26,616 nt of DNA from IMG/VR virus record IMGVR_UViG_3300029448_000356, positions 1 to 26,616 of that record; one strand, given 5' to 3'. Positions within the stretch are counted from its first letter, which is position 1. Each line of letters opens with the position of its first letter. This stretch comes from a virus. Below are positions 1 to 26,616 of this stretch, one piece after another. The notes beneath the pieces are model-generated. The model saw only the letters and a list, made by a program, of their open reading frames with translations, was not told the origin of the DNA and ran no database searches. The position numbers were made by a program, and so were the translations under genes.

Positions 1-25
1 ATAAGTTTAACAAAAAAAAGTAAGA

Positions 26-1207
26 ATGAAAAAATTAATGACAATCTTGTTCGTGGTATGCGTAAGTTGGAACGTCAGCGCAGAAGAAAAAGATAATATA
101 TTTAAAAGACTATATAAAGAGTTGTTTAAATACAGTACAGTTTATATAGCAGGAGACATAGACAATCCTAAAGAAAACCCTAAAGATTATTTTGTAAGAA
201 CAAACCCTGATGGTAATTTATATGCACCACCTGTAGTTGTGGACGGAACTGACTATTACGACTTTGATTATCGTTATGGTTTTGGGATTCGTAAGTTAGC
301 ACGTTTCGACTACGAGATTAAAGGGAAACACTACTATGACGGCACAGAAAACAATATTGGACTATCAGCACCTAATTCGCCTGTAAGTGGCTTAGAATAC
401 ACCTTTCACTACGAAAAAGAAAGATCAAGAGACGAGGAATATAAAAACCACAGATACTTTATAAAACATAGTGGTAAGTATCACGTTGTAAAACTTGAAA
501 GTAGAAAACAGGGTAGAGTAGATTTTAACTACAATTCAGCAGAGATACGAGCTAAACTACCAATAGGTAAAAAGTTTAGTATAAGCGCAGGAGCAATCTT
601 CAGATCTCACGATAGACCTTATGGATATAACCCAATAGAGATATGGTTAAACGAAACAAACGCTGATGGATATCCTGTAAATCAATGGTATCAATTAGGT
701 TATCAGTATGGATATACAGATCAGTTTGTAACAATAGATATTAACGGAGAAGAAACTTTTGATTGGTATTGGTATAACGAACAAGGAGATGTAGTAGCAT
801 TATCAGATTTACAATTTAGAGATACAGTATTTGAATCTTTAATCAACCGATACAATAACGAAGTGTGGGATGAGTTAGATGCTTTTGGAGTAGTAAGTCC
901 TATTGTAGGTTTTGACTTTTATCACTATAAAAAGAACTTTTGGTTACACGCTTACGGATCATATTTACTTCCGTATCACAAATACGTCAAGGGAGATATA
1001 GACTTTAGTTATTTAAATAGAAATAATTGGGGATTAGGAGGATTAAGACAAGATTCACAGCACGAACAATGGGAAGATTACCAAGCAGGTATAAGTTTTG
1101 GTTGGAAAGTATCTAAGTCAATAGGTATTTTTGTAGAGGGAGAATACACTAAGTTTTGGGATTCAGAAATATATAACTCAAGCGTAGGTTTAAACTTTAA
1201 ATTATGA
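26..1207 (+). CDS. Secreted outer-membrane beta-barrel-like phage protein
   Basis: 393 residues. The N-terminus is a clear signal peptide: KK, a hydrophobic stretch (about residues 4-16) and a likely cleavage after VSA at residue 19. The rest is rich in Tyr, Trp, Gly and charged residues and alternates polar and aromatic residues, as expected for transmembrane beta-strands. It ends in an alternating strand, SVGLNFKL, like outer-membrane beta-barrel C-termini. No cysteines or catalytic motif are visible in the mature part. Its TGA overlaps the amidase ATG (ATGA), so it is translationally coupled to the lysis genes. The role is unknown. It could alter the host outer membrane, for lysis or exclusion of other phages, or it could be a virion protein, because it probably also follows the tail fibre gene if the genome is circular. 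Confidence 0.6.
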   Translation: MKKLMTILFVVCVSWNVSAEEKDNIFKRLYKELFKYSTVYIAGDIDNPKENPKDYFVRTNPDGNLYAPPVVVDGTDYYDFDYRYGFGIRKLARFDYEIKGKHYYDGTENNIGLSAPNSPVSGLEYTFHYEKERSRDEEYKNHRYFIKHSGKYHVVKLESRKQGRVDFNYNSAEIRAKLPIGKKFSISAGAIFRSHDRPYGYNPIEIWLNETNADGYPVNQWYQLGYQYGYTDQFVTIDINGEETFDWYWYNEQGDVVALSDLQFRDTVFESLINRYNNEVWDELDAFGVVSPIVGFDFYHYKKNFWLHAYGSYLLPYHKYVKGDIDFSYLNRNNWGLGGLRQDSQHEQWEDYQAGISFGWKVSKSIGIFVEGEYTKFWDSEIYNSSVGLNFKL

Positions 1208-1626
1208 GAGAAATAACAAAGATAATTGTTCATTGTACAGCAACACCTGAGAGTAGAGAAGTTGATGTAGAAGAAATAAGACAATGGCACGTTGAGGAAA
1301 GAGGATGGTCAGATGTTGGTTATCATTTCCACATCAAGTTAGATGGTACTCTACAAGAAGCAAGACCAATAGAAAGAACAGGCGCACATTGTGCAGGTCA
1401 AAACTTTTGTAGTATAGGAATTAGTTATGCAGGTGGTATGACTAAAGATATGAAAGAAGCTAAAGACACAAGAACACCTGAACAAAAAGACGCTTTAACT
1501 GACATCTTACACGAACTTAAAGAACAATACCCTAAAGCAAAGATATACGGACACAGAGACTTTAGTCCAAAGGCTTGTCCAAGTTTTGATGCGAGAAGCG
1601 AATACGAATACATAAGCAACTGCTAA
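1204..1626 (+). CDS. Endolysin: N-acetylmuramoyl-L-alanine amidase (Amidase_2, T7 lysozyme type)
   Basis: 140 residues, almost one complete Amidase_2 domain. The enzyme cleaves the bond between N-acetylmuramic acid and L-alanine in peptidoglycan. The zinc ligands expected for T7-lysozyme-like amidases are visible: His10 (IIVHCTAT), His117 (GHRDFSP) and Cys125 (KACPSFD). The catalytic Tyr40 (VGYHFHI) and Lys123 are also present. There is no signal peptide, so export to the cell wall should depend on the holin two genes downstream. The start overlaps the preceding stop in ATGA and the stop overlaps the next start in TAATG, so the lysis genes form one coupled unit. Confidence 0.93.
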   Translation: MREITKIIVHCTATPESREVDVEEIRQWHVEERGWSDVGYHFHIKLDGTLQEARPIERTGAHCAGQNFCSIGISYAGGMTKDMKEAKDTRTPEQKDALTDILHELKEQYPKAKIYGHRDFSPKACPSFDARSEYEYISNC

Positions 1627-1769
1627 TGGACTTCTCAGTAATACTTCTTTTACCTAATGGTTTAAACTTAGGGTTTAACTTTTTCCCTGCTGATGATAAT
1701 TACGAATACGAGGAGGTCAACGTATATTTATTAATAGTACAACTTAAATGGAGATTTTATTATGAGTAA
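1626..1769 (+). CDS. Small conserved-looking protein in lysis cassette
   Basis: 47 residues, beginning at the ATG inside TAATG of the amidase stop and ending 8 nt inside the holin gene. The sequence has two hydrophobic stretches (residues 3-9 and 33-40) around an acidic patch (PADDNYEYEE) and ends KWRFYYE. I recall similar short proteins next to amidase genes in flavobacterial phages, but I know no function. Overlap at both ends, with no spare sequence, argues that it is a real gene. A role in lysis, for instance as a holin partner, is only inferred from position. Confidence 0.6.
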   Translation: MDFSVILLLPNGLNLGFNFFPADDNYEYEEVNVYLLIVQLKWRFYYE

Positions 1770-2217
1770 GAAATTTAAAGATAGCACAGTAGGTAAAGTA
1801 TTGCTTGGAGCTGCAAGTATGATAAACCCTACATTAGGAAGCGTTTTAAAGGGTGTTACAAGCCCACAGGAAGCGATTGCAGAGATAACTAAGGCTGATG
1901 CACCACAAGAGGATAAAATCAAGTTACAACAGCTAATATACGATCAACAAAATAAAGAGATGAACGAAATAAGTTCAAGATGGAAAGCAGATATGTCAGC
2001 AAATGGCAGTTGGCTTACAAAAAATGTACGACCATTAGTTTTAGTTTGGTGTATTGTTATCTTTTCTTTAGCAGGTATATTAGATAGTGTAGAATCAATA
2101 CCTTTTCAAATTAATGAATTATGGGGATCAACTTTCGAGAATGTTATGATGACCACGATCATTTCTTATTTCGGAAGCAGGGGTCTTGAAAAATCAACAA
2201 GTATATTTAAAAAGTAA
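1762..2217 (+). CDS. Holin, GTA_holin_3TM-like
   Basis: 151 residues. The central segment SSRWKADMSANGSWLTKNVRP (about residues 71-91), followed by a hydrophobic helix PLVLVWCIVIFSLAGIL (91-107), is the characteristic pattern of the 3TM holin family of gene transfer agents and phages. A second membrane segment lies at 124-138 (FENVMMTTIISYFG). The N-terminal part (10-30) is glycine-rich and weakly hydrophobic and could be a third segment. It should form inner-membrane lesions that release the amidase to the periplasm. It overlaps the upstream small gene by 8 nt and is the last gene before the 2218-2339 non-coding region. No i-spanin/o-spanin pair is visible nearby. Confidence 0.75.
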   Translation: MSKKFKDSTVGKVLLGAASMINPTLGSVLKGVTSPQEAIAEITKADAPQEDKIKLQQLIYDQQNKEMNEISSRWKADMSANGSWLTKNVRPLVLVWCIVIFSLAGILDSVESIPFQINELWGSTFENVMMTTIISYFGSRGLEKSTSIFKK

Positions 2218-2227
2218 GATTGGCTGT

Positions 2228-2298
2228 AATACGTAATACAATACGTAACTATAATACGTATATGTTGTTTAAGAGTGTAATACGTAACTATAATACGT
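2228..2298. repeat. Iteron-like array of five AATACGT repeats
   Basis: AATACGT occurs at 2228, 2240, 2253, 2279 and 2292, with start-to-start distances of 12, 13, 26 and 13 nt, so four copies keep a 13-bp phase. The block AATACGTAACTATAATACGT is an exact 20-bp direct repeat (2240-2259 and 2279-2298). The last copy continues into ACGTTATATA (2295-2304), the motif found before the structural genes. The array fills most of the 122-nt gap between the holin and ninG. It could be a replication origin with iterons or a cluster of operator sites controlling the early genes. Confidence 0.75.
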
Positions 2299-2339
2299 TA
2301 TATAGGCGAAGTTATATTTTTTTTTTGTAACTTACAAGT

Positions 2340-2711
2340 ATGCCAAGAAAAATAAGTAGAAAAGGTTTAGTTAAAAAACTTGATAAAGTCTTTAGTATAT
2401 ATATACGAAAAAGAAATGCAGTAGATGGTTATGTCAAGTGTGTAACTTGTGGAACTCGTAAGCATTGGACTGAAGTAGATGCAGGTCATTTTTGCTCGAG
2501 ACGGCATTATTCTACGAGATGGCTGCCTACAAACGTCTTCGAACAGTGTAAAAAATGCAACTGCTACGGTGCAGGAGAAAATTACCTTATGGGTAAATAC
2601 ATAGACAAGACTTATGGCGAGGGTACAGCAGACGAGTTAATCACTATGTCAAGACAAATAAAAAAGTTCACAGATCAGGATTTAAAAGACCTAATAGAAC
2701 AATATTCCTAA
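2340..2711 (+). CDS. ninG: NinG/Rap-like recombination protein
   Basis: 123 residues. It matches the pattern of the lambda NinG (Rap) family: a basic N-terminus, a zinc-ribbon pair CVTCG (Cys34, Cys37) with QCKKCN (Cys70, Cys73), and DAGHFCSRRHYSTRW (48-61), the HNH-like core of the family. Lambda Rap is a structure-specific endonuclease that acts on branched recombination intermediates. Here it is the first gene after the repeat array and is isolated from the next genes by a strong terminator at 2732. It probably resolves recombination or replication intermediates together with the RecE-like exonuclease at 6679. Confidence 0.85.
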   Translation: MPRKISRKGLVKKLDKVFSIYIRKRNAVDGYVKCVTCGTRKHWTEVDAGHFCSRRHYSTRWLPTNVFEQCKKCNCYGAGENYLMGKYIDKTYGEGTADELITMSRQIKKFTDQDLKDLIEQYS

Positions 2712-2731
2712 ATTTTCCTTTTTGTTTTTAG

Positions 2732-2763
2732 AGGGGTTTACTTCGGTAAGCCTCTTTTTTTTT
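2732..2763 (+). terminator. Rho-independent terminator after ninG
   Basis: A 10-bp stem (2732-2741 with 2746-2755, two G-U pairs) closes a TTCG tetraloop and is followed by nine T. It lies 20 nt after the ninG stop and directly before a promoter at 2765. Confidence 0.9.
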
Positions 2764-2764
2764 A

Positions 2765-2796
2765 ATTAACATTTGTTTATTTAATTATTTTTTGTA
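2765..2796 (+). promoter_or_regulatory. Bacteroidetes-type promoter
   Basis: ATTAACATTTGTTTAT (2765-2780) contains a -33-like TTTG at 2772. A second TTTG at 2791 within TATTTTTTGTA fits a slightly relaxed -7 element (consensus TAnnTTTG). The spacing between the two TTTG boxes is 19 nt start to start. The same 16-mer and the same spacing recur at 5967. It sits just after a terminator and before a run of replication genes. Confidence 0.75.
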
Positions 2797-2818
2797 GCTT
2801 TATGAAAAATTAATATTT

Positions 2819-2932
2819 ATGGAAAATCCAAAAGATCAACTTATAGAGCTTTATTATCAAAGAGTAATAGCTATGAGTAATAAGATCGAACAATTACAAA
2901 ATCAATTAAATAATTATGAAAGGAAAAATTAA
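2819..2932 (+). CDS. Short helical/coiled-coil protein
   Basis: 37 residues. It is the first ATG after the promoter that opens a reading frame of useful length; an earlier ATG at 2802 gives only three codons. The sequence is polar and helical, with heptad-like Leu/Ile spacing (IEQLQNQLNNYE near the C-terminus), which suggests a short coiled coil. It overlaps the next gene by 17 nt. No function is recognised. Position suggests an early role with the OB-fold proteins. Confidence 0.5.
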   Translation: MENPKDQLIELYYQRVIAMSNKIEQLQNQLNNYERKN

Positions 2933-3263
2933 ATTTATTCAAGAAAAAGGAGAATGGTCTAATAGTTCAGGCACATTCAACAAATTTCAAGTACAATTTG
3001 ACGATGGTCAAAGTTATCAGTTTCTTGCAAAGGGAGACTTTAAGAGGAACGTTGGAGACTTAGTAGAATACGAAGTAACCAATAAACAATATGGCACAGC
3101 TAAGTTAGTCTACACACAACCAAGTGGTAGTAATAAAGATCAGCTTATTATTAGACAGTCAATGGTTAAAGCAGCTTGTGATTTTCACGCATCAAGACCA
3201 CAAAGCGATATAGTAACAGTAATTAAAGATGCAGAAAAACTAATAGAATTTATAAATAAATAA
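2916..3263 (+). CDS. Putative OB-fold single-stranded-DNA-binding protein
   Basis: 115 residues. The first 70 residues look like an OB-fold: short beta-rich strands such as KFQVQFDDGQSYQF and GDLVEYEVTNKQ. The C-terminal part (about 74-115), IIRQSMVKAACDFHA followed by an amphipathic helix, recalls the helical tail of some phage ssDNA-binding or annealing-associated proteins. It lies 3 nt upstream of a DUF3127-like SSB, and both precede the replicative ATPase. I infer that it binds ssDNA or accompanies the SSB. The family assignment is from memory, not from a search. Confidence 0.5.
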   Translation: MKGKIKFIQEKGEWSNSSGTFNKFQVQFDDGQSYQFLAKGDFKRNVGDLVEYEVTNKQYGTAKLVYTQPSGSNKDQLIIRQSMVKAACDFHASRPQSDIVTVIKDAEKLIEFINK

Positions 3264-3266
3264 AAA

Positions 3267-3602
3267 ATGAAAGTAAAAGGAAACATAGTAAAAATAGGAA
3301 AGATGCAAGACATTAGTTCTAAGTTTAGAAAAAGAGAGCTTGTAATAAAAACAGCAGAACAATACCCACAACATATATCAATAGAGTTTGTTCAGGACAA
3401 AGCAGGATTACTTGATGCACATTTTTGTACACAAGGAGCTTTTGTAGATGTCTCTATAAACTTAAAAGGTAGAGAGTGGAAAAACCCTGCAGGAGATTCA
3501 AAATACTTCAATTCAATTCAAGGATGGAGAATACAAGAAGCAGTTGAGGAAGTAGCAGTGGGAGCTCAGTCTCCTGACAGAGAAGATGATTTACCATTTT
3601 AA
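3267..3602 (+). CDS. DUF3127-like single-stranded-DNA-binding protein
   Basis: 111 residues. The N-terminal domain (MKVKGNIVKIGKMQDIS..., RELVIKT, QYPQHISIEF, GAFVDVSINLKGREW) matches my recollection of DUF3127, an OB-fold family largely confined to Bacteroidetes and their phages. The last residues, REDDLPF, are a canonical acidic SSB tail (consensus DDD-I/L-PF), used by SSBs to recruit replication and repair partners. It should coat ssDNA during phage replication. It is followed by a terminator at 3609. Confidence 0.8.
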   Translation: MKVKGNIVKIGKMQDISSKFRKRELVIKTAEQYPQHISIEFVQDKAGLLDAHFCTQGAFVDVSINLKGREWKNPAGDSKYFNSIQGWRIQEAVEEVAVGAQSPDREDDLPF

Positions 3603-3608
3603 TTATAT

Positions 3609-3633
3609 GGGGGTTTAACGACCCCCTTTTTTT
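3609..3633 (+). terminator. Terminator or attenuator abutting the next start codon
   Basis: GGGGGT (3609-3614) pairs perfectly with ACCCCC (3621-3626) around loop TTAACG, followed by seven T (3627-3633). The ATG of the next gene begins at 3634, immediately after the last T. Confidence 0.85.
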
Positions 3634-4563
3634 ATGCTTATAAACTATTCAGATCATATAAACAAATTAAACGACTTCAGACAAGGTAAAACTCGTGAAG
3701 CGTTAAAGCTCGGACATAAAGAGATAGACAGCTCGTTTAGGTTTGTTGCAGGTAATATGAATTTTATCTTAGGACACAACAACGTAGGTAAAACACACTT
3801 TACGTTTTATCTTATGTTGCTTTACTCACTTAAACACAATATTAAATGGTTAGTATTTTCGAGTGAAAATGATCCTGTACAATTAATTAAAAAGCTAATA
3901 GAATTTATAGAGGGTAAGCCAATAAACAAAATAGAAGAAAAAGATTACGAAGAATCAAAAGACTTTGTATATAATCATTTTAAGTTTGTTGACATTAACA
4001 GACAATATACCTATAAACAACTTTTAGACTTAGCCGAGAAAGTAAAGGAGGCTTGGGATTACGATGGTTTACTTATTGATCCTATAAACTCTTTAAAGAA
4101 AGATTTAAAAAACACTAACGGTTACGAGTACAATTATGTACAACTGACTGACATACGAATCTTTTGTAAAAAATATAACATTTCTACTTGGATATGCGCC
4201 CACGCAGTGACCGAAGCCCTGCGCCGTAAGCACGGAGCTAATCACGAATATAGTGGAATGACTCCTCCTCCTACAATAGGAGATAGTGAGGGTGGTGCAG
4301 TAAACGGAAATCGTTGTGATGACTTTTTAATTGTGCATCGGTATATAGCTTCAAAAGATGCTTGGATGTACACAAGGCTTTACGTTGCTAAGGTAAAAGA
4401 AATGAGTTTAGGATATAAACCTACAAGCCACGAATCTCCTATATTATTTAAGTCAATACTTAATAACGTAGGATTTCAAATAGGTGCAAAAAATTTAATA
4501 AAGTATAGAACTAAGAAACAATTAACCATTGACAACACTTCAAAAAATAGCACAAAAGCATAA
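3634..4563 (+). CDS. RecA-fold ATPase, DnaB-like replicative helicase
   Basis: 309 residues with a RecA/DnaB-type core. Walker A is GHNNVGKT (47-54). Walker B is in DYDGLLIDPINSL (Asp149). ICAHAVTEA (around His190) corresponds to the sensor-like H motif of DnaB/Twinkle-type helicases. There is no DnaB N-terminal primase-binding domain and no Toprim or primase domain, so it is a minimal helicase or a RecA-like recombinase. Its position after two ssDNA-binding proteins supports a replication role. No DNA polymerase or primase is visible in the window, so host replication enzymes are probably needed. The start lies directly behind a terminator, leaving no room for a leader with a ribosome site other than the hairpin itself. 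Confidence 0.78.
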   Translation: MLINYSDHINKLNDFRQGKTREALKLGHKEIDSSFRFVAGNMNFILGHNNVGKTHFTFYLMLLYSLKHNIKWLVFSSENDPVQLIKKLIEFIEGKPINKIEEKDYEESKDFVYNHFKFVDINRQYTYKQLLDLAEKVKEAWDYDGLLIDPINSLKKDLKNTNGYEYNYVQLTDIRIFCKKYNISTWICAHAVTEALRRKHGANHEYSGMTPPPTIGDSEGGAVNGNRCDDFLIVHRYIASKDAWMYTRLYVAKVKEMSLGYKPTSHESPILFKSILNNVGFQIGAKNLIKYRTKKQLTIDNTSKNSTKA

Positions 4564-5023
4564 TGATTGGGTAAGAATTGTTAAGAGCTTTGGATGTGAG
4601 GGAGACAAGTGCGAGGACATCGTGCAAGAGATGTATATAAAAATACATACATTAATTGTTAAGGGAATAGATATAAGCTATGAAGATGATATAAACCACT
4701 TCTACATATACAGAATGCTTAGAAGCCTATTTATAGATTTATGTCGCAAAGAAGCGAAGATTACAAAAGTAAACGTAGACTACTTAGAAAAGTTTGTAGA
4801 GGAGGAAGAAGTAAAAGAATACAAAGACATAGAGGGTAAGATGAAAGAGTTAGACACTTTGCTTGATAAAGTCTATTGGTATGATAAGAAAGTTTTTGAC
4901 CTGATCTCTAATGGAATGAGCATAGCTGAATTATCTAAGAAAACAAACATAAGTTATTACTCGTTATATAATACATACAAGAACGTAAAGACATTAATTA
5001 AAGAAAATATAGAATGGGATTAG
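4529..5023 (+). CDS. Sigma-70/ECF-like RNA polymerase sigma factor
   Basis: 164 residues. Residues 11-75 resemble sigma region 2 (CEDIVQEMYIKIH, then FYIYRMLRSLFIDLCRKEAK). Residues 118-160 resemble region 4 with a helix-turn-helix (KVFDLISNGMSIAELSKKT, then NISYYSLYNTYKNVKTLI). The middle linker is acidic. The start is TTG at 4529, since the only in-frame ATG (4634) would remove half of region 2; this makes the gene overlap the helicase by 35 nt. It may redirect host RNA polymerase to phage promoters such as the ACGTTAT motif before structural genes. An alternative is a sigma-like DNA-binding regulator that does not bind polymerase. Confidence 0.75.
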   Translation: MTTLQKIAQKHNDWVRIVKSFGCEGDKCEDIVQEMYIKIHTLIVKGIDISYEDDINHFYIYRMLRSLFIDLCRKEAKITKVNVDYLEKFVEEEEVKEYKDIEGKMKELDTLLDKVYWYDKKVFDLISNGMSIAELSKKTNISYYSLYNTYKNVKTLIKENIEWD

Positions 5024-5145
5024 GAGATTTAATAGAAAAAATAACAAAGCACACAGGTATCAAGTGGATCGTTAAAAAGATATGGGGAGATGATTGTGGT
5101 TGCGACAAGAGAAAAGACAAAGCAAACAAAGTAAAGCTATGGTAG
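5014..5145 (+). CDS. Small Cys-containing phage protein
   Basis: 43 residues, starting at an ATG 10 nt inside the sigma-like gene. The sequence runs MGLGDLIEKITKHTGIKWIV and ends in a CGCDKRKDKANK-type tail. I recognise this pattern (GLGD..I...T...GI, then CxC.KRK..LN) as a recurrent small protein of Bacteroidetes phages with no assigned function. The CGC pair could bind a metal. It overlaps the next gene by 7 nt (ATGGTAG). Confidence 0.65.
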   Translation: MGLGDLIEKITKHTGIKWIVKKIWGDDCGCDKRKDKANKVKLW

Positions 5146-5330
5146 AAAAAGATTTATCAAGATGGTTAGAGTTTACCAACCGAACTAAACAACACGAGCT
5201 AAATAAAACTCAAATAGAATTAGTCGCAGAGCTACACGCTAAATACTACAAGCATAAGTATAATGAGCCTTGCACTTGTAACGGATCAATATACAGAAGA
5301 TGGATTGAGGATTTAAACAAACTCGTATAA
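5139..5330 (+). CDS. Small conserved phage protein
   Basis: 63 residues from ATG 5139. The frame is open further upstream to a TTG at 5094, but the ATG fits the coupled overlap with the preceding small gene. The sequence is helical, with LVAELHAKYYKHKYNEPCTC and RRWIEDLNKL. It carries a CxC pair like its neighbour and resembles a recurrent small protein of flavobacterial phages. The function is unknown. Its stop overlaps the nuclease start (TAATG). Confidence 0.65.
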   Translation: MVEKDLSRWLEFTNRTKQHELNKTQIELVAELHAKYYKHKYNEPCTCNGSIYRRWIEDLNKLV

Positions 5331-5971
5331 TGCAAGACCATTACTATACATTATCTATTCCTACTGCTGTTTATAGAAAACTAAACAAAAAGAAATCTAT
5401 AAATAAGTATTTTAAGACAGAGTATGTAGGTAACTGTATGGAATTAATAACAGATTTCTACAAAACAACATCCGACTACACACACAAGGCTTGGGAAGAT
5501 TATTATAAAGAGATGGTAGGCTTTACACAATTAGAACTTGTTTATGAGCAGATAAAAGAATTATCAGAACAAAAAGAAACTTACTTAAAAAGATATGTTT
5601 GGCACAGGGTAATAGGTCAAACTTGGAATGGCTTTAGAAACGAGATAGGAATTATACAAGAACTACAGGCAGAATTTAAAAACGTAAAGATATATAAAAC
5701 ATCATTTCAAATAGATCACGAGTATTGCATAGATGCAGAGATGTACAGCAACAACAAACTATTATTAGGAATACAAATAAAACCTATCAGCTACAAGCTA
5801 ATGAATAGTCCTTACCAACTAAAAGCTAAAGAAAACCACAAACTAAAGAACGAAAAGTATAAATCTAAGTATGCTCCCTATATATATGTGTATCACAAGA
5901 ATCATAAGATATACCAAAAATCAGATATAGTCAATCAGATAAATACTATATTTCACTTAAATACATATTAA
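5330..5971 (+). CDS. MjaI-like type II restriction endonuclease
   Basis: 213 residues. RVIGQTWNGFRNEIGIIQEL (93-112) matches my memory of the signature of the MjaI restriction endonuclease family. A plausible PD-(D/E)XK active site is Asp135 (YCIDAEMY) with Gln149-x-Lys151 (LLLGIQIKP). MjaI itself cuts CTAG, and this window contains no CTAG that I can find. No methyltransferase is adjacent; the C5 methyltransferase lies 3 kb downstream. The phage may use the enzyme to cut host or competitor DNA while its own genome lacks the site. The first 90 residues are not recognised. The gene ends just before a promoter. Confidence 0.62.
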   Translation: MQDHYYTLSIPTAVYRKLNKKKSINKYFKTEYVGNCMELITDFYKTTSDYTHKAWEDYYKEMVGFTQLELVYEQIKELSEQKETYLKRYVWHRVIGQTWNGFRNEIGIIQELQAEFKNVKIYKTSFQIDHEYCIDAEMYSNNKLLLGIQIKPISYKLMNSPYQLKAKENHKLKNEKYKSKYAPYIYVYHKNHKIYQKSDIVNQINTIFHLNTY

Positions 5972-5998
5972 CATTTGTTTATATTAAAATAATTTGTA
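5967..5998 (+). promoter_or_regulatory. Bacteroidetes-type promoter, twin of 2765
   Basis: ATTAACATTTGTTTAT (5967-5982) is identical to 2765-2780 and overlaps the stop of the nuclease gene. TTTG at 5974 and TTTG at 5993 (in TAATTTGTA) are again 19 nt apart. The next gene starts at 6017, giving a short leader. Confidence 0.78.
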
Positions 5999-6016
5999 TA
6001 TTGCATAAAAACAATT

Positions 6017-6217
6017 ATGCCAATAAGCAACGAAATATTTGAAACCTTTAGGATTCAAGAAAGAGTAAAAGAACAGCTAAAAGCAATCAAGCTCTTAATA
6101 AAACAAGGATATACAATTTTTGATTTAGAGGGTAATATGCTTAACAAAGACGAGGTTAAGTTTGATGCAAGAGGCAACAGAGTTAAAACAAAACAAACAC
6201 AAAAAAGCTATAAATAA
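6017..6217 (+). CDS. Small hypothetical protein
   Basis: 66 residues, the first gene after the promoter at 5967. The N-terminal 35 residues are helical (IFETFRIQERVKEQLKAIKLLIKQGY), followed by a short strand-like YTIFDLEGNML and a basic tail (RGNRVKTKQTQKSYK). No family is recognised beyond a vague resemblance to small phage proteins starting MPISNEIFET. It probably has an early or middle function, judging by its promoter. Confidence 0.6.
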   Translation: MPISNEIFETFRIQERVKEQLKAIKLLIKQGYTIFDLEGNMLNKDEVKFDARGNRVKTKQTQKSYK

Positions 6218-6218
6218 T

Positions 6219-6651: not shown

Positions 6652-6700
6652 TTACTTAGGCATAATAATTATATTTATATGGATACTATTGAACTCCTAA
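6611..6700 (+). CDS. Possible 29-residue single-pass membrane micropeptide
   Basis: ATG 6611 opens a frame overlapping the end of the coiled-coil gene and the start of the exonuclease gene. It encodes a polar N-terminus (MRNYENKMRA) followed by a hydrophobic helix (about residues 10-27, AFSYLGIIIIFIWILL) and NS. A transmembrane segment arising by chance in AT-rich overlapping sequence is possible. An internal ATG at 6632 could also be the start. No function is known. Confidence 0.4.
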   Translation: MRNYENKMRALAFSYLGIIIIFIWILLNS

Positions 6701-7452
6701 ACGGAGAAATATTTAAACACGATGAGATATTAGAACTTATGAAAGATGATGAGTTCTACTATGGATACTTAGGCAAAGCTGCACTCAGCTCCTCATCAAT
6801 AAAGCTACTCTTAGATAGCCCTAAGAAATACAAATACGTTACCGAGTATGGATCACAAGAATCAAATGCTTTAGATGCAGGATGGTTATTTCATACTTGT
6901 ATTTTAGAGCCTGACGTGTTTAGCTCACAAATCTTTGTAGATGTACAATCTAAAAACACTAAGGCATATAAGTTAGCTAAAGAAGAACACGGAAAGGTTT
7001 TTACTATAAAACAGAAAAGAGATGCAGAAAGATTAGCTGATGCCTTTTTAAGAAACGAACACGCTTTAAAACTAATAACAGACTGCGAGTTTGAAGTACC
7101 TGCAATAGGTATGGTACAGGGATATCCTTTTAGAGGCAAAGCAGATGTCTTAGACAGTTACAGACTATGCGATCTTAAAACAACAAGCGACCTAAAAGCA
7201 TTTCCCTATGCTGCAAGAAAGTACGGATATGATGTACAAGTATATTTATATTGTGAATTGTTTAACAAACCATACGAGGAGTTTAAGTTTGGAGTAATAG
7301 ACAAAGGATCATTAGACATAGGAATCTATGATGTAAGTGAGGAGTTTTATTTACAAGGCAAAGCCAAAGTAACAAAAGCATTAGAAACATTTGAAACATT
7401 TTTTATTAACGGAGCAGACTTAGATAGTTACTGCATTAAAGGAACATTGTGA
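6679..7452 (+). CDS. PD-(D/E)XK exonuclease, RecE/exodeoxyribonuclease VIII-like
   Basis: 257 residues. Motifs of the RecE/Exo VIII-type (DUF3799) nuclease fold occur in order: SSSSIKLLLDSPKKY near 37-51, LDAGWLFHTCILEP (65-78, with the conserved G..H), FRGKADVLD (151-159, Asp156), CDLKTTSD (Asp165, Lys167) and DVQVYLY (Gln187..Tyr191). Such enzymes degrade the 5' strand of duplex ends to expose a 3' tail for annealing. The SSB-type proteins and NinG upstream could complete a recombination pathway, though no Redbeta/RecT-like annealase is visible. An alternative is host-DNA degradation for nucleotides. The stop overlaps the next GTG start. Confidence 0.8.
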   Translation: MDTIELLNGEIFKHDEILELMKDDEFYYGYLGKAALSSSSIKLLLDSPKKYKYVTEYGSQESNALDAGWLFHTCILEPDVFSSQIFVDVQSKNTKAYKLAKEEHGKVFTIKQKRDAERLADAFLRNEHALKLITDCEFEVPAIGMVQGYPFRGKADVLDSYRLCDLKTTSDLKAFPYAARKYGYDVQVYLYCELFNKPYEEFKFGVIDKGSLDIGIYDVSEEFYLQGKAKVTKALETFETFFINGADLDSYCIKGTL

Positions 7453-8721: not shown

Positions 8722-9040
8722 AGGACTTATAAAATACTTTCCTGATGCACTATGCGAAGTAGCAAGAGTAAGCTACATAGGAAGTAAACAACATCATCCT
8801 GACAAAGAAATACATTGGGATAGAGAAAAAAGCTCAGACGATCTTGATGCACTTATGCGACACCTAATGGAAAATGGTATGCACGACATAGATGGAGTAA
8901 GACACTCTGCAAAGATTGCTTGGAGAGCATTAGCACACCTACAAAAAGAAATAGAGGGAGACAGAGGCGAACAATGGTACATAGACCAATACAATCGTAA
9001 CAGACTACCACACGACCAAATAATATCAGGTACAGAATGA
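8678..9040 (+). CDS. DUF5664-like nucleotide hydrolase (dATP/dGTP diphosphohydrolase N-terminal family)
   Basis: 120 residues. The pattern is that of the DUF5664 family, helical proteins related to MazG-type pyrophosphohydrolases and linked in some phages to purine nucleotide pools: LIKYFPDALCEVARVSYIGS, then SSDDLDALMRHLMENGMHDID and RHSAKIAWRALAHLQKEI. Conserved-looking Asp/His residues (DDLDALMRH, RHSAKIAWRALAH) could bind metal. It may adjust dNTP pools or remove modified nucleotides during phage DNA synthesis. It ends ATGA with the methyltransferase start, so the two are coupled. The activity is family inference only. Confidence 0.65.
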   Translation: MEKNKQKRKQIPLYKGLIKYFPDALCEVARVSYIGSKQHHPDKEIHWDREKSSDDLDALMRHLMENGMHDIDGVRHSAKIAWRALAHLQKEIEGDRGEQWYIDQYNRNRLPHDQIISGTE

Positions 9041-9621
9041 AAATACTAAACTTATATTCAGGTATAGGGGGTAATAGACATCTTTGGGGTGATGAACACG
9101 AAATTACAGCTATTGAGATTAACCCTGAAATTTCAGCAATATACAAAGAGAAGTTTCCAAATGATGTAGTTATAAATACAGATGCACACTTTTACTTATT
9201 ACATCACTTTCAAGACTTTGATTTTATTTGGTCAAGTCCACCTTGTCCAAGTCATAGTAGATTATGCTACTCACAGAAAGAAAAGAAATATATAGACTTA
9301 GCACTATATCAACAAATAATACTTTTAAAATCTTGGTTTAAGGGTAAATGGGTTATAGAGAATGTAGTACCTTATTATGATTATCTTATCAACCCAAGTG
9401 TAGTAATAGGTAGACATCCTTATTGGTGTAATTTTGAAGTTCCAACTCTACCAATAAAAAACATAGATATATCTCGTTCAACAGCAGATGAACTATCTGA
9501 ATATTTAGGCATACCTAAACCAAGATACAAATCAAGATTATTATTAAGAAATTGTGTAGAGCCAAAGATAGGGTTACATTTTCTTAAACATAGCGCTAAT
9601 AAACAAACAGAATTATTTTGA
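9037..9621 (+). CDS. DNA (cytosine-5)-methyltransferase, compact
   Basis: 194 residues. Motifs in order: SAM-binding motif I LNLYSGIGGNRHLW (4-17), motif II-like ITAIEINPE, motif IV SSPPCPSHSR with catalytic Cys70, motif VI WVIENV (105-110) and a motif VIII-like RYKSRLLLRN near 173. It is much shorter than free-standing C5 methyltransferases and lacks a normal target-recognition domain, as in other mini-Dcm phage enzymes. It may protect phage DNA from host restriction. The site cannot be read from the sequence. It is not next to the MjaI-like nuclease, so pairing as a restriction-modification system is not supported by position. Confidence 0.8.
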   Translation: MKILNLYSGIGGNRHLWGDEHEITAIEINPEISAIYKEKFPNDVVINTDAHFYLLHHFQDFDFIWSSPPCPSHSRLCYSQKEKKYIDLALYQQIILLKSWFKGKWVIENVVPYYDYLINPSVVIGRHPYWCNFEVPTLPIKNIDISRSTADELSEYLGIPKPRYKSRLLLRNCVEPKIGLHFLKHSANKQTELF

Positions 9622-19270: not shown

Positions 19271-19297
19271 ACACAAAATGCAAATATAAATTTTAAC

Positions 19298-19904: not shown

Positions 19905-19915
19905 AATTAAATAAA

Positions 19916-20839: not shown

Positions 20840-20852
20840 TAAATTAACATAT

Positions 20853-20880
20853 AAAGGGGTAGTTAACCCTACCCTTTTTT
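20853..20880 (+). terminator. Terminator after major capsid gene
   Basis: GGGTAG (20857-20862) pairs with CTACCC (20869-20874) around TTAACC. Extra A-T and G-T pairs outside the core are followed by a run of six T. Confidence 0.88.
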
Positions 20881-20894
20881 AATAACTAATAATT

Positions 20895-21473
20895 ATGCCT
20901 TGTACAATAACTCAGGGACGTGCAGTCCCTTGCAAATCAGGAGTAGGTGGTCTTAAGACTGTTTACTTTGCAGATTTCGGTACTCTTGGTGCAGCAGCAG
21001 ATAGTGGATCACAAGATCCTTTTTCTGCTACTTTTAATGGTCAGATTGATACTTTTGCTTCTTTAACAGGATCAGCACCATCTGCGAGTGGTGTTCTAAA
21101 AAAGTTTGACATTAAAGGTAATTCATCTTTAGAAACTGCAATTAACAGCTCAAGAGAAAACGGAACTACATTTTACGAATCAACACTAAACTTAACATTA
21201 ACATTCCTTGAAAAAGCAACACAAGAAGAAGTTAAATTAATCTCACACGCAAGACCACACGTTTTTGTAGAAGATTATAATGGTAATTACTTTGTAATGG
21301 GCTTAGAACACGGAGCAGAGGTTACAGGTGGATCGATTGTAAGTGGAGCTGCTATGGGAGACCTAAGTGGATTTACTTTAACTTTAGTATCACAAGAAAG
21401 AATACCGCCACCATTTGTATTAAGTACAGAGGTTGTGAATAATTCTGATACTGATCAAATAACACCGAATTAA
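20895..21473 (+). CDS. Putative major tail tube protein
   Basis: 192 residues. It begins with MPCTITQGRAVPCKSGVGGL and is strand-rich, with KKFDIKGNSSLETAINSSRE, GTTFYESTLNLTLTFLEKAT, GNYFVMGLEHGAEVTGGSIV and GDLSGFTLTLVSQERIPPPF. The order of segments (beta-sandwich with a GLEHGAEVTGG turn and a final FTLTLVSQE strand) resembles siphovirus tail tube proteins. Its position between capsid and portal, rather than beside the tape measure, is unusual, so a capsid decoration protein is the main alternative. It stands in its own unit between two terminators, which fits an abundant product. Confidence 0.55.
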   Translation: MPCTITQGRAVPCKSGVGGLKTVYFADFGTLGAAADSGSQDPFSATFNGQIDTFASLTGSAPSASGVLKKFDIKGNSSLETAINSSRENGTTFYESTLNLTLTFLEKATQEEVKLISHARPHVFVEDYNGNYFVMGLEHGAEVTGGSIVSGAAMGDLSGFTLTLVSQERIPPPFVLSTEVVNNSDTDQITPN

Positions 21474-21530
21474 AAATAATTTTTGTATATTTATAAAAGT
21501 TTTCATCAATTATATTTAGTTTTTTGAATT

Positions 21531-21560
21531 AAGGGGGAGTTTTCGGACTCCTCTTTTTTT
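21531..21560 (+). terminator. Terminator after tail-tube-like gene
   Basis: GGGGAGT (21534-21540) pairs with ACTCCTC (21547-21553) around TTTCGG, with one G-T pair, extended by A-T pairs and followed by seven T. The 57 nt between the stop and the hairpin are AT-rich and hold no gene. Confidence 0.88.
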
Positions 21561-21582
21561 ATACACAAAATCTAAAGTTTGT

Positions 21583-21598
21583 ACGTTATATAAGTATG
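21583..21598 (+). promoter_or_regulatory. ACGTTAT-N6-ATG motif before portal operon
   Basis: ACGTTAT at 21583-21589, six bases, then ATG 21596. It comes 22 nt after a terminator, so transcription must restart here. This makes it the best evidence that the motif is a promoter. Confidence 0.72.
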
Positions 21599-21943
21599 AT
21601 ACACTTAACGACATCTGCATCAGCTCAAACTTTAAAAGTAATACCAAGAAGTTACGCTTCAAGTGTTAGTATGATTCTAAGAGACGATTCAACAAACACC
21701 TCAACGACATACACAGTAAGCACTACAACAGACAAAAACTATTTAGTAGTATCAAAAGCATTAAGTCCTGTACTTGTAGAGGGTAGATTCTACGACCTAA
21801 CTCTTAAAGAGGGAAGTAGTGTAATATATAAAGATAAAGTTTTCTGTACTAATCAAACTGTTTCGAGTTATTCAGTAAATAATGCAGAATATACTGTACC
21901 AACAGGAAACGATGTCTACGATAATGATTATATTGTAATATGA
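21596..21943 (+). CDS. Small structural protein upstream of portal
   Basis: 115 residues, mostly short beta-strands (MIHLTTSASAQTLKVIPRSY, NTSTTYTVSTTTDKNYLVVS, LVEGRFYDLTLKEGSSVIYK). It is Thr/Ser/Tyr-rich, with an acidic end (YDNDYIVI). I recall such proteins next to the portal gene of Bacteroidetes phages with no known function. It may be a capsid decoration or a small virion protein. It is coupled to the portal gene by ATGA. Confidence 0.6.
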   Translation: MIHLTTSASAQTLKVIPRSYASSVSMILRDDSTNTSTTYTVSTTTDKNYLVVSKALSPVLVEGRFYDLTLKEGSSVIYKDKVFCTNQTVSSYSVNNAEYTVPTGNDVYDNDYIVI

Positions 21944-23733
21944 AAAACAAATCAGATTTAAGTATTGTAAATTTAAGCACTTATACTTCTCCACAAGTAA
22001 AAGAAGTAAGAGGCAAAGACTTCATAGAATATGGGGAAGATAACAACTACTTTCAATACCTAATAGACAGATACAACGGAAGTCCTACGAATAACGCTAT
22101 TATAAATGGTGTTAGCGAGATGATTTACGGAAAAGGGTTAGATGCTACCAATTCAAATAAAAAACCGAATGAGTACGCTCAAATGAAGTCTTTATTTAAT
22201 AAGGATTGTACAAGAAAATTATGCTATGACCTAAAACTAATGGGACAATGTGCAATACAAATCATCTATTCTAAAGACAGAAGTAGAATTGTACAGTTAG
22301 AACATATACCAATCGAAACATTAAGAGCTGAAAAGTGTAATGAAAAAGGCGAAATAGAAGCATACTTTTATTTTAGTGATTGGTCAAAATACAAGAGAGG
22401 AAACGAATTAAAAAGATTACCTGCATTCGGAACTTCTAAAGAGGGATTAGAAATACTTTATGTTAAACCTTATAGAGCAGGGTTTAAGTATTATAGTCCT
22501 GTAGATTATCAAGGTGGAACACAATACGCTGAATTAGAGGAGGAGATATCTAACTTCCATTTAAACAACATACTAAACGGACTTGCGCCAAGTATGTTAA
22601 TTAACTTCAACAATGGAACTCCTGATCCTGAGCAAAGAGAAATGATAGAAAGAAGAATCTATGAAAAGTTTAGTGGCTCAAGTAATGCAGGTAAATTTAT
22701 TTTAGCATTTAACGACAATCCTGAAACAGCAGCAAGTATAGAGCCTGTTCAGTTGAGTGATGCACACCAACAATACGAGTTCCTAAGCAACGAAAGTTCT
22801 AAAAAGATTATGGTAGCACATAGGGTAGTAAGTCCTATGTTGTTTGGAATTAAAGATGATACAGGTCTTGGTAATAACGCTGATGAATTAAAGACAGCTT
22901 CTATCCTATTTGACAACTTAGTAATTAAAGGCTTTCAAGGACTTTTAATAGATGCCTTTGACCAAATACTTGCTTTTAACGATATCTCTTTGAATTTGTA
23001 CTTTAAAACGCTTCAGCCACTTGAATTTACAGACTTAGAGAACGTAGAGGACGAGGAAACAAGAGAAGAAGAAACAGGGGTTAAGCTAAGTAAAGAAGAT
23101 GACTTTAGAGATTCTATAGCGCAAGAGCTAATTGACTTAGGAGAAGATGAAGAAGAATTACTTAAAGATTTTGATTTAGTAGATGAATCAGAAGTAGACT
23201 ATGAGTTTGATGATGAAATGGATGAATTAATAGAACAAACTAATAATGAAATTAAATTATCAACAGGTAGCGCAAAACCTTATAGAGAAAGTGAACAAGA
23301 TGGTAAAACCGAAGCAGGTAGGTTATTAGGTTATACGTTTTTAGTAAGATACAAATATGCACCTGCAAGAACTCAAACAACCTCAAGAAAGTTTTGCAAA
23401 GAAATGGTAAAAGCTAAAAAAGTTTATCGTAAGGAAGATATTATATCTATGGATGATGTAGCAGTTAATGCAGGGTTTGGTGAGAATGGAGCAAAAACTT
23501 ACTCTATATGGTTATACAAGGGTGGTGCAAGATGTAAACATTATTGGTCTCGTAGAACGTACTTAAGAAAAGATGGTAATAAAAGTTTAGGTAAAAAACT
23601 ATATGATTCAGAGGCTAAAAGACGAGGTTTTATAGCACCTAAAAACGATAAGAAAGTAGCAATGAAGCCAAAAGATATGCCTTATAGTGGATATACAGCA
23701 GCATACGCTAAGAAAATAGGAATAAGTAGATAA
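21940..23733 (+). CDS. Portal protein with fused C-terminal domain
   Basis: 597 residues. Residues 1-375 look like a phage portal: FIEYGEDNNYFQYLIDRYNG, NNAIINGVSEMIYGKGLD, LEHIPIETLRAE, NLNNILNG-type wing segment, RRIYEKFSGSSNAGKFIL and VAHRVVSPMLFGIKDDTGLG. An acidic linker (about 380-445) leads to a separate basic domain (462-597) with RRTYLRK, CKHYW and SIWLYKGGARC, which resembles a minor head (Mu F-like) domain. Portals form the dodecameric DNA entry ring; the tail domain may be exposed inside the head. An acidic linker before it is consistent with a tethered or cleaved domain. Confidence 0.85.
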   Translation: MKNKSDLSIVNLSTYTSPQVKEVRGKDFIEYGEDNNYFQYLIDRYNGSPTNNAIINGVSEMIYGKGLDATNSNKKPNEYAQMKSLFNKDCTRKLCYDLKLMGQCAIQIIYSKDRSRIVQLEHIPIETLRAEKCNEKGEIEAYFYFSDWSKYKRGNELKRLPAFGTSKEGLEILYVKPYRAGFKYYSPVDYQGGTQYAELEEEISNFHLNNILNGLAPSMLINFNNGTPDPEQREMIERRIYEKFSGSSNAGKFILAFNDNPETAASIEPVQLSDAHQQYEFLSNESSKKIMVAHRVVSPMLFGIKDDTGLGNNADELKTASILFDNLVIKGFQGLLIDAFDQILAFNDISLNLYFKTLQPLEFTDLENVEDEETREEETGVKLSKEDDFRDSIAQELIDLGEDEEELLKDFDLVDESEVDYEFDDEMDELIEQTNNEIKLSTGSAKPYRESEQDGKTEAGRLLGYTFLVRYKYAPARTQTTSRKFCKEMVKAKKVYRKEDIISMDDVAVNAGFGENGAKTYSIWLYKGGARCKHYWSRRTYLRKDGNKSLGKKLYDSEAKRRGFIAPKNDKKVAMKPKDMPYSGYTAAYAKKIGISR

Positions 23734-23735
23734 TT

Positions 23736-24236
23736 ATGGCAACAGTATTATTCATATCAAGAACAGATTTAGTCAAGAACAGTATTATTGATGGTAATGT
23801 TGACACAGATAAATTTATACAGTTTATTAAGTTAGCGCAACAAATCGAAATAAGAAACTACTTAGGAAGCAAACTATACGACAAAATAGGTGCAGATATA
23901 GCAGGATCAGGCTTGTCAGGAAACTATGAGACCTTAGTTAATGATTATGTACAGCCTATGTTAATATGGTATGCACAAGCAGAGTATATTCCTTATGCAG
24001 CTTATCAAATTAAAAACGGAGGAGTGTTTAAAGGATCATCAGAAAACTCAGAATCAGTATCTAAGAGTGAAGTTGACTTTTTAGTAAACAAAGCAAGAAA
24101 CACAGCAGAGTATTATACTCAAAGGTTTTTAGATTACATTAATAATAATAGTAATTTATTTCCTGAGTATAACGACAATCAGGGTGGAGACGTATATCCT
24201 GATAGTGATGCTACATTTAACGGATGGGTATTGTGA
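23736..24236 (+). CDS. Head-tail connector/adaptor-like protein (DUF6712-like)
   Basis: 166 residues, helical. LFISRTDLVKNSIIDGNVDT, DKFIQFIKLAQQIEIRNYLG, KIGADIAGSG, YETLVNDYVQPMLIWYAQAE and SKSEVDFLVNKARNTAEYYT follow the pattern of gp6-like adaptor proteins of Bacteroidetes phages. It would dock on the portal to form the connector. It lies 2 nt after the portal stop. Its TGA overlaps the GTG start of the next small gene. Confidence 0.7.
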   Translation: MATVLFISRTDLVKNSIIDGNVDTDKFIQFIKLAQQIEIRNYLGSKLYDKIGADIAGSGLSGNYETLVNDYVQPMLIWYAQAEYIPYAAYQIKNGGVFKGSSENSESVSKSEVDFLVNKARNTAEYYTQRFLDYINNNSNLFPEYNDNQGGDVYPDSDATFNGWVL

Positions 24237-24355
24237 TATACAAACCAAAAGAAAAAAATATAATTAAATTAAAACAGTATTTAAATGGCAAATACGATAA
24301 ATTGGGGCAAATCATACAGCGAGAGTTATTGGGGGAACGCAACAACAACCAATAG
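24233..24355 (+). CDS. Small basic phage protein (GTG start)
   Basis: 40 residues from GTG 24233, overlapping the preceding TGA. The sequence runs IYKPKEKNIIKLKQYLNGKY, then DKLGQIIQRELLGERNNNQ. The KL..YL.GKY..LGQ.IQRELL pattern is familiar as a small protein near connector genes in Bacteroidetes phages. Its last 71 nt also encode the start of the next gene in another frame. Confidence 0.6.
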   Translation: MIYKPKEKNIIKLKQYLNGKYDKLGQIIQRELLGERNNNQ

Positions 24356-24464
24356 TTGGGGAGATGATTATATAGTAGAGTATTTGACTTCTGATTTAAA
24401 CAGAAGAGTGCAAATATACGAGAACAACACAATGACTATACAACTATTAGAGAATATACAATGA
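24285..24464 (+). CDS. Small Trp/Asn-rich protein
   Basis: 59 residues. NTINWGKSYSESYWGNATTT followed by NSWGDDYIVEYLTSDLNRR is rich in Trp, Asn and Ser. The W-G..Y....W-G pattern is familiar from small proteins preceding tail fibre genes of flavobacterial phages. It begins inside the preceding small gene in a different frame and is coupled to the fibre gene by ATGA. The function is unknown. Confidence 0.6.
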   Translation: MANTINWGKSYSESYWGNATTTNSWGDDYIVEYLTSDLNRRVQIYENNTMTIQLLENIQ

Positions 24465-26616
24465 GTTTACTACAAAAAGCATCCATAATAACCACACCTA
24501 CAGCTTATGCTGAGGACTACTTATATTCTATAAAACCTGCTTATGCTTTAGGCTCAGAGCTTGTAGTAAATGGTAATTTTTATAATAATGTAAATAGTTG
24601 GTCTAATGGAAATTCAGGCGTTAATACTTGGGTTAATGGACATTTAGTTTGCACAGGAGATGGTGGTAGTTATGCTGCTGCAAAACAAATTATCCCTGCT
24701 GTAGAAAATAGAAAATATATTGTTACTGCTCAAATTGCAAGGGTAAGTGGGAGTTTTTCAGTAGGCATAGAGGTTAATGATAGTAACGGAAGTGGATGGA
24801 ATGTTATTGGCTCTACGACAACTTCATCTGAATTTGTTACTGTTTCTGAAATTATAACTACAAATACAGGCACTACACAATTAGATTTAAGAGCAACTAT
24901 TTTTAATACTACAGTAGATAATACTAATAGTTTAAAATTAGATAATGTAAGCGTAAAATTATTAACAGATGCCGACTTTGACTTTGACAGAAACTCAACA
25001 GGAACAAGAGTCAACGAAGATTATTTAATAGAAGATGTGCCTTATAATTTAGTTAGTTACTCTGAAGATTTTAGCAATAGTGGTTGGACTAAAGAAAACA
25101 TAACAATATTATCAAATAACATAATAAGTCCTGACGGAACTTTAAATGGAGATAAAATAAGTGAAACTGCAACAAATACTTATCACGCTTTAAGTGAATC
25201 AATTAACATTTCTTCAGGCAATTACACAATAAGTGTTTTTGCAAAATTAGATGAGAGGCAATATATGTTAATAAGAAGCAATTTGAGTGGTAGTAATGTT
25301 AATACTACTTTTGATTTAAGCAATGGGTTAGTTACATATAACGGACATACATCAGCTTCAATAGAAAGCGCAGGTAAAGGGTGGTATAGATGTAGTGTTA
25401 CATCAAATTCTTCTGTTACTTCTGTAAATACAGCTTTTTTACCATCAGGAATAGATATTACTAACAATAATTTACCTACTTATTTAGGTGTTGTTGGTAG
25501 TGGTTTGTACATCTATGGCGCACAAATAGTAAAAGGCGACCAACCAAAAGACTATCTAAAAACAACAGACAGATTAGACATACCAAGAATAGATTACACA
25601 AACGGAGAGCCGAGTATCTTGCTTGAGCCAAGCAGAACAAACCAAACGACTAACAGTGACAATATACATTTATTATCAAATGGTACAGGTGGAGATGGAG
25701 CTGTTACTTCTACTGCAAACTATGCAATTTCTCCTGATGGAACACAATCAGCTACAAGAATAGTTTCTTCTGCAACAGGCTCAGGTTATGCTGTTAAAAG
25801 TTCAACTGCTGCAACATCAACAAGTGGTAGTTATAGTGGTAGTGTTTGGCTTAAATCTAATACTTCTCAAAATCAAACTATAGCATTTTACGGAAGAAAC
25901 TCAAATATAAATTCAGCAGAAATAACTACTAATTGGCAAAGATATGAGTTTACAGGTTCAGCAAGCACTAATTTTTGTAATATTGGTGTATATCCGAGCA
26001 GTCCGATAAATTCAACAACAAGTGCAGATTTTTTAGCTTGGGGTATGCAAATAGAACACGGAAGCTATGCAACATCTCTAATACACACTTCAGGAAGTGC
26101 AGTTACTCGTAGTGCAGATGCAGCAAACAATGCAGGAAACAGCGACTTAATAAACTCTACAGAGGGAGTGCTTTATGTAGAAGCATCTTCAAATTACGAT
26201 AGCTCTCACACAAATAGAATTGCAATTTCTGACGGAACATCAAGCAACAGAATTTCTTTAGAATGGGATGAAACCACAGAAAATAGAATAAGACTGCATA
26301 TAAACACACATTCTTTATTATCCTATGATGCAGTTGATTTATCTATCCAAAACAAAGTGGCTGTTAAATATGCTGCAAATGACTACGCTATTTGGTTTAA
26401 TGGTAGAGAAGTTGTAACACAAGCATCAGGGGCTTTACCAACAGGTATGGATGTCTTAGAATTTACAGGTGCAGGTTTAGGTTCAGCAGGTAGTTTTTAC
26501 GGAAACGCTAAAAGTGTAATGGTATTTAAAGAAGCTCTTACTGACTTAGAATTAGAGAAACTAACAGGCTACAACAACCACGAACTATATATGAATTATT
26601 ACAATAGATTAAGCTA
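24461..26616 (+). CDS. Tail fibre/receptor-binding protein with lectin-like modules, open at window end
   Basis: At least 718 residues, with no stop before the window end. Modules: an N-terminal carbohydrate-binding-like beta-sandwich (about 33-165, starting ELVVNGNF..NVNSWSNG); a DFDFDRNSTGTRVNEDYLIE linker near 170-190; a second module (195-370, NLVSYSEDFSNSGWTKENIT, ending YIYGAQIVKGDQPKDYLKT); a short RIDYTNGEPSILLEPSRTNQ link; a third module (395-545) ending AWGMQIEHGSYATSLI; then a LamG/concanavalin-like domain (about 560-705) with VFKEALTDLELEKLTGY. This suggests binding to surface polysaccharides. If the genome is circular, base 1 completes TAA and the protein ends at residue 718. Confidence 0.75.
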   Translation, partial: MSLLQKASIITTPTAYAEDYLYSIKPAYALGSELVVNGNFYNNVNSWSNGNSGVNTWVNGHLVCTGDGGSYAAAKQIIPAVENRKYIVTAQIARVSGSFSVGIEVNDSNGSGWNVIGSTTTSSEFVTVSEIITTNTGTTQLDLRATIFNTTVDNTNSLKLDNVSVKLLTDADFDFDRNSTGTRVNEDYLIEDVPYNLVSYSEDFSNSGWTKENITILSNNIISPDGTLNGDKISETATNTYHALSESINISSGNYTISVFAKLDERQYMLIRSNLSGSNVNTTFDLSNGLVTYNGHTSASIESAGKGWYRCSVTSNSSVTSVNTAFLPSGIDITNNNLPTYLGVVGSGLYIYGAQIVKGDQPKDYLKTTDRLDIPRIDYTNGEPSILLEPSRTNQTTNSDNIHLLSNGTGGDGAVTSTANYAISPDGTQSATRIVSSATGSGYAVKSSTAATSTSGSYSGSVWLKSNTSQNQTIAFYGRNSNINSAEITTNWQRYEFTGSASTNFCNIGVYPSSPINSTTSADFLAWGMQIEHGSYATSLIHTSGSAVTRSADAANNAGNSDLINSTEGVLYVEASSNYDSSHTNRIAISDGTSSNRISLEWDETTENRIRLHINTHSLLSYDAVDLSIQNKVAVKYAANDYAIWFNGREVVTQASGALPTGMDVLEFTGAGLGSAGSFYGNAKSVMVFKEALTDLELEKLTGYNNHELYMNYYNRLS

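Follow-up and report, generated by a model that had tools for sequence, protein, structure and literature searches.

The question raised by this locus is how a phage can encode an endonuclease of the MjaI type and have a genome in which the site of such an enzyme is missing. The DNA analysed, referred to as the window, is the whole of the IMG/VR virus record IMGVR_UViG_3300029448_000356 (26,616 bp), and the gene of interest is termed nuclease A. MjaI cuts CTAG, and restriction enzymes are normally paired with methylases. The original prediction, made from the sequence, was that the phage carries a nuclease directed at host or competitor DNA and that its genome has been purged of CTAG, making a cognate methylase unnecessary. 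Our analyses led to a modified form of this explanation, to which we assign a probability of about 0.83: nuclease A would be a solitary MjaI-family endonuclease, its specificity broadened from CTAG to CYRG, that cuts unmodified DNA and to which the phage is immune through the purging of sites. The window phage is tailed, and its closest isolated relatives by terminase are the Nonlabens phages P12024L/S (57% identity), which makes a marine flavobacterial host likely.

The absence of CTAG from the window was confirmed, with no occurrence against an expectation of 79.5 from trinucleotides, 76 from base composition or about 108 from dinucleotides; AGCT and GTAC, as had been noticed, are frequent (119 and 64 occurrences). 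Composition does not account for this gap. When the synonymous positions of 22.7 kb of window genes were shuffled 400 times, with protein sequences and codon usage kept, the shuffled genes contained 62.7 +/- 6.4 CTAG (minimum 43), and the real genes contain none. CTAG is not the only missing word, however, as eight further tetramers are at zero: CATG (about 57-72 expected), CCAG/CTGG (83-90 expected), CCGG, GGCC, CGCG and CCCG/CGGG. Four of the missing words, CTAG, CCAG, CTGG and CCGG, together make up the degenerate palindrome CYRG, for which the shuffled genes gave an expectation of 133 sites and never fewer than 107, compared to 0 in the real genes. Some longer words are also depleted in the window: GAAGG/CCTTC (2 observed, 35 expected), GGTTC/GAACC (2 and 27), GGTGA/TCACC (3 and 21), CASTG (6 and 25) and AAGCTT (0 and 20).

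The assignment of nuclease A to the MjaI family also held, by way of its homologues. All 11 diverged homologues tested, 47-61% identical to the window protein, scored 28-45 bits against PF09568 (RE_MjaI), for which the cut-off is 22.7; the 47% identical homologue of locus L009, for example, reached 30.8 bits. A profile of the phage proteins matched a profile of bacterial MjaI-type endonucleases from restriction-modification (R-M) systems with a probability of 99.7% (E 1e-25), with the D...GIQIKPxSY core aligned. Membership in RE_MjaI, established by transitivity rather than from the window sequence alone, is thus well supported. The residues D135...Q149-x-K151 were invariant in 13 of 13 diverged phage homologues, as was the D...GIQIKP motif in eight bacterial MjaI-type R-M homologues, and this conservation points to a catalytic role. 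An AlphaFold2 model of the protein was confident (predicted local distance difference test score 90.7), with strands at residues 136-140 and 143-152. Its best PDB matches by Foldseek (Cdn1, BsoBI and EcoT38I) were not significant (E 0.04 or worse), and a PDB sequence search gave no significant match. A homing endonuclease was rejected as a reading of nuclease A, as the linked words are 4 bp long and the gene stands alone among early genes rather than within an intron.

Evidence for a link comes from the distribution of the gene and the words across related loci. In a non-redundant set of 38 nuclease-positive loci (518 kb), CTAG occurred 2 times against 1755 expected, CCAG/CTGG 8 times against 2649 and CCGG 24 times against 649. 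A wider search added 73 nuclease-positive loci with the same pattern (observed/expected: CTAG 2/2524, CCAG 13/4575, CCGG 30/1235). Across 12 protein clades spanning 28-48% GC, only CTAG and CCAG had an observed/expected ratio of 0.01 or less in every clade, followed by CCGG (0.21 or less), and other CNNG words (e.g., CAGG, CAAG, CACG and CGAG) were at or above expectation in carriers. When 72 gene families were scanned against 136 tetramers in 146 non-redundant loci, the pairs nuclease A-CCAG and nuclease A-CTAG ranked first and second: CCAG was absent in 38 of 38 carriers and 5 of 108 non-carriers, and CTAG in 38 of 38 carriers and 18 of 106 non-carriers. Nuclease A lies in an interval bordered by the sigma-like gene and the exonuclease gene. 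This interval is visible in 66 loci, and all 66 conform to the rule that the gene is present exactly where CTAG and CCAG are both missing. When mapped onto a tree of the adjacent exonuclease, the two features change nine times each, always together. The residual CTAG, CCAG and CTGG sites of carriers fall mostly in two short patches (L139:5156-5906 and L101:3691-3914), as would be expected of recent imports.

The comparison of relatives with and without the nuclease, proposed in the original prediction, gave the same answer. The nearest terminase relatives of the window (L017-L020, 91-92% identity, on contigs G001 and G002) have no nuclease A, as a search over the full length of both contigs (53 kb and 26.8 kb) showed. 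In a pooled comparison of 136 words, nuclease-positive sisters (153 kb) had CTAG at 0/635 and CCAG at 1/499 (observed/expected), whereas nuclease-negative sisters (99 kb) kept CTAG at 301/443 and CCAG at 226/342, i.e., 0.68 and 0.66 of expectation. Both pools were without CGCG and GGCC and strongly depleted in CATG (19/409 in the positive and 0/258 in the negative sisters). In seven aligned genes, all 27 CYRG sites of L017 were gone at the homologous window positions, and control words were partly retained (AGCT 7 of 19, GTAC 6 of 12, CAGG 11 of 19). The part of the original prediction that linked the purging of CTAG to the nuclease is well supported, and the purged set is to be extended to CCAG/CTGG and, in most lineages, CCGG.

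Homologues outside this phage group provided further information. A scan of genome contigs for cellular homologues with a narrow alignment found none, and a scan with a wider alignment found 19. At least ten of these loci are near a TSPPY-type methylase (of the N6/N4 methylase family in the four cases tested), and their surroundings are CTAG-poor, with CCAG near expectation. Given these methylase neighbours and the normal CCAG, the cellular members resemble a conventional CTAG R-M system, of which the phage enzyme would be a relaxed derivative that has dispensed with the methylase. The phage enzyme is homologous to the MjaI family over most of the chain, shares the D...QxK core and has CTAG among its linked words; it differs in having no companion methylase, in linked words that reach CCAG/CTGG and mostly CCGG, and in the purging of sites by the phages that carry it. 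In addition, the isolated T4-like cyanophages S-SM2, S-H9-2, S-RIM32 and S-CAM3 (L290-L293 and L297) carry a distant MjaI-type homologue (159 bits to RE_MjaI in S-SM2). In stretches of 30-40 kb, the observed/expected counts of CTAG were 0/99 and 0/87 in S-SM2, 3/87 in S-H9-2, 3/90 in S-RIM32 and 9/90 in S-CAM3, compared to 44/84, 55/81 and 93/108 in three phages without a match to the homologue. CCAG is in excess in the four carriers, so that the depletion concerns CTAG only. These cyanophages are an independent replicate of the link between nuclease and CTAG.

Several observations weigh against nuclease A as a solitary CYRG endonuclease. The window protein itself had no match in Pfam and only a weak REase_II match in PADLOC. 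All data on the nuclease A family come from metagenomic fragments, and the cleavage activity of the enzyme, together with CYRG as its actual specificity and its timing and target, is a prediction. Only three of the nine co-changes are on well-supported branches (all three agree, too few for significance), so that phylogenetic independence of the link is probable without reaching formal significance. Seventeen related contigs without the nuclease also lack CTAG, a word that is under-represented, irrespective of R-M, in 55% of prokaryote genomes (PMC4687349). The absence of CTAG, on which the original prediction was built, was thus rejected as a signature of the nuclease and is weak evidence when taken alone; what is diagnostic is that CTAG and CCAG are missing together. 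Both words are absent from two nuclease-negative contigs, the 4.9-kb fragment L089 and the fragment L012, which comes from the same clade as the window and stops short of the nuclease position. Finally, CCGG is tolerated in some carriers (observed/expected 13/26 in L142, 5/27 in L153 and 4/5 in L164), and L144 and L147 also keep it, with CTAG and CCAG gone. CCGG may therefore be cut poorly, or not by every family member, and this word is the least secure member of the proposed site. A protecting CCGG methylase was discarded as the cause, as no PF00145 or PF01555 match was found in the contigs of L142, L153 and L164.

If nuclease A is a solitary endonuclease of broadened specificity, it would cut unmodified DNA during infection at the very frequent CYRG sites. 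No methylase would be needed, because the enzyme would attack the genome of its own phage wherever such a site occurred, and the sites would consequently be purged by mutation. The words missing from its genome apparently allow the phage to distinguish its own DNA from foreign DNA. Given this reading, there is about an even chance that the main target is the host chromosome, whose destruction would provide shut-off and nucleotide supply; this is our first choice, as cuts spaced 60-100 bp apart would fit the destruction of an entire chromosome and as chlorovirus enzymes act in this way (PMC7019647). Like nuclease A as predicted, the Chlorella virus enzymes (e.g., CviJI, RGCY; PBCV-1) are virus-encoded, cut very frequently at degenerate 4-bp sites and are thought to degrade host DNA (PMC7019647), but adjacent methylases protect the viral DNA, whereas site absence would do so here. 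A second precedent is found in phage T4, in which the protection of the phage likewise differs. T4 endonucleases II and IV degrade host DNA, and T4 itself is protected by modified cytosine; nuclease A would resemble them as a phage nuclease acting against host and not phage DNA, with purging in place of modification.

A co-infecting phage with a different nuclease is the second most likely target, somewhat behind the host chromosome given the same reading, because the nuclease locus is exchangeable. In L017, two other small nucleases occupy the interval that holds nuclease A in the window. Nuclease B (L017:5961-6377, 138 aa) is located exactly at the position of nuclease A and has homologues in 66 loci, in which CATG was observed 5 times against 2205 expected; its model is Hjc/RecU-like with a PD-(D/E)XK fold (structure match E about 1e-4), and D35...E49xK51 is invariant. 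Nuclease C (L017:5215-5649, 144 aa) has homologues in about 36 loci. Its close homologues are accompanied by total loss of GGTC/GACC, several others by total loss of GATC and some by neither, suggesting that it may be a family that switches specificity. Locus L127 carries all three nucleases and is without CYRG and CATG. Neither the window nuclease nor nuclease B had a match in INPHARED. The 53-kb contig G001 (IMGVR_UViG_3300030202_000332) has two copies each of nuclease B (86% and 100% identical to L017) and nuclease C (77% and 100%), and it is therefore probably two related phages joined. Different nucleases and other purged words (CATG; GGTC or GATC) at one spot suggest an exchangeable system. 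The features of the window that belong to it are listed in Table 1.

Table 1. Features of the window that bear on nuclease A and on the exchangeable interval
Feature	Position	Strand	Basis
Nuclease A, orphan MjaI-type (RE_MjaI family) PD-(D/E)XK endonuclease, 213 aa, predicted specificity CYRG	5330..5971	+	Homologue Pfam scores, profile-profile match, AlphaFold2 model, gene/site association
Predicted catalytic core D135 ... Q149-I-K151 (D-x13-QxK variant of PD-(D/E)XK), within CIDAEM...LLLGIQIKP	5732..5782	+	Invariance in homologues; putative role
Genome-wide CYRG absence (CTAG, CCAG, CTGG, CCGG), 0 sites	1..26616	.	Word counts, codon shuffling, link to nuclease A across loci
Sigma-factor-like gene, upstream border of nuclease interval	4529..5023	+	Weak Sigma70_r2 / PHROG sigma factor matches
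78-aa gene directly upstream of nuclease A; L017 homologue directly upstream of nuclease B	5094..5330	+	Comparison with L017
Exonuclease VIII-like gene (DUF3799, PD-(D/E)XK), downstream border of interval	6679..7452	+	PHROG 412 E 6e-34, Pfam DUF3799

The same orphan nuclease could accordingly have been selected for interference with competing phages or satellites, with alternative nucleases at one locus leading to mutual exclusion. We regard this role tentatively as the strongest competitor, as near-identical phages have either nuclease A (the window) or nucleases B and C (L017) in one interval, with a separate purged word linked to each, and as L017-type genomes are rich in CYRG and the window is rich in GGTC. 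Precedents are phiPA3 gp210 (PMC11620839) and Odn of ICP1, which is encoded at an exchangeable odn/CRISPR locus (PMC9040626); both are phage nucleases acting against rival DNA, as predicted here, but at single or rare targets rather than at a 4-bp site. On the other hand, a cut every 60-100 bp exceeds what exclusion would need, and the chlorovirus restriction enzymes are not responsible for mutual exclusion (PMC7019647).

An improbable alternative is that the avoidance is driven by hosts carrying a CYRG restriction system, or CTAG and CCAG enzymes, and that the nuclease gene is a passenger marking host range. Non-temperate phages commonly avoid the R-M sites of their hosts (PMC6286503), and this leaves the same genomic footprint, except that the enzyme there is the host's and the linked enzyme here is the phage's own. 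The window's loss of CATG, GGCC and CGCG, together with the absence of CCCG/CGGG, is not explained by nuclease A and may be host-driven. A tie between CATG and nuclease A was rejected, as sisters without the gene also lose this word and L008, with the gene, keeps 18/47; no nuclease B homologue was found in the window, and a search for a gene accounting for CATG loss in such nuclease-B-negative loci gave only weak, clade-bound associations. However, sisters with the same CATG, GGCC and CGCG profile, and presumably overlapping hosts, that lack nuclease A keep CTAG and CCAG, the association holds in 12 clades at 28-48% GC and through nine inferred gene changes, no host R-M system reading CYRG was found, and the cellular homologues coexist with normal CCAG. 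Another set of forbidden words is observed in six related contigs without nuclease A (L051, L055, L057, L058, L060 and L065), in which CCAG, GACC and AGCT are missing and CTAG is plentiful.

It is still less probable that nuclease A is half of an R-M system, its sites protected by a methylase encoded elsewhere and the word bias secondary. MjaI-type enzymes are normally paired with methylases, and the window does encode a C5-methylase-like protein (9037-9621, PF00145 E 6e-8). However, there are no sites left to protect, this methylase is missing from most carriers, and several carrier contigs of 24-29 kb are without any PF00145 or PF01555 methylase. An adjoining partner was ruled out as no methylase lies beside the gene, and the C5 methylase was rejected as a cognate partner since it is not conserved with the nuclease. 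The latter marks a second exchangeable spot, upstream of the small terminase gene, where L017 has an N6/N4-type methylase (L017:8941-9564). As for an effect of composition, codon usage or assembly, many genomes that have no R-M are poor in CTAG (PMC4687349), but the codon shuffles and the recurrence of the same gaps in contigs that range from 28 to 48% GC and come from numerous independent samples, with the words present in sister contigs of the same databases, make it exceedingly improbable.

Taken as a whole, the comparison points, with somewhat better than even odds, to a general and previously undescribed phage strategy: an exchangeable early-gene cassette of one or more solitary frequent-cutting nucleases (A for CYRG, B for CATG, C for GGTC or GATC), in which each lineage is purged of the matching words, self and non-self are written as forbidden words, and cassette swaps would make related phages mutually incompatible. 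The virus appears to use a restriction enzyme without a methylase, safe only through a site-free genome. If this is true, CYRG, which was not found as a specificity in a full-text search of open papers, would be a new enzyme specificity to test. The isolated cyanophages with an MjaI-type enzyme offer culturable systems, and phages that are nearly isogenic but carry different nucleases and forbidden words would make the choice between host takeover and phage-phage competition testable. Moreover, the missing words in phage genomes would then be readable as the specificity of the phages' own nucleases, turning compositional gaps into functional predictions.

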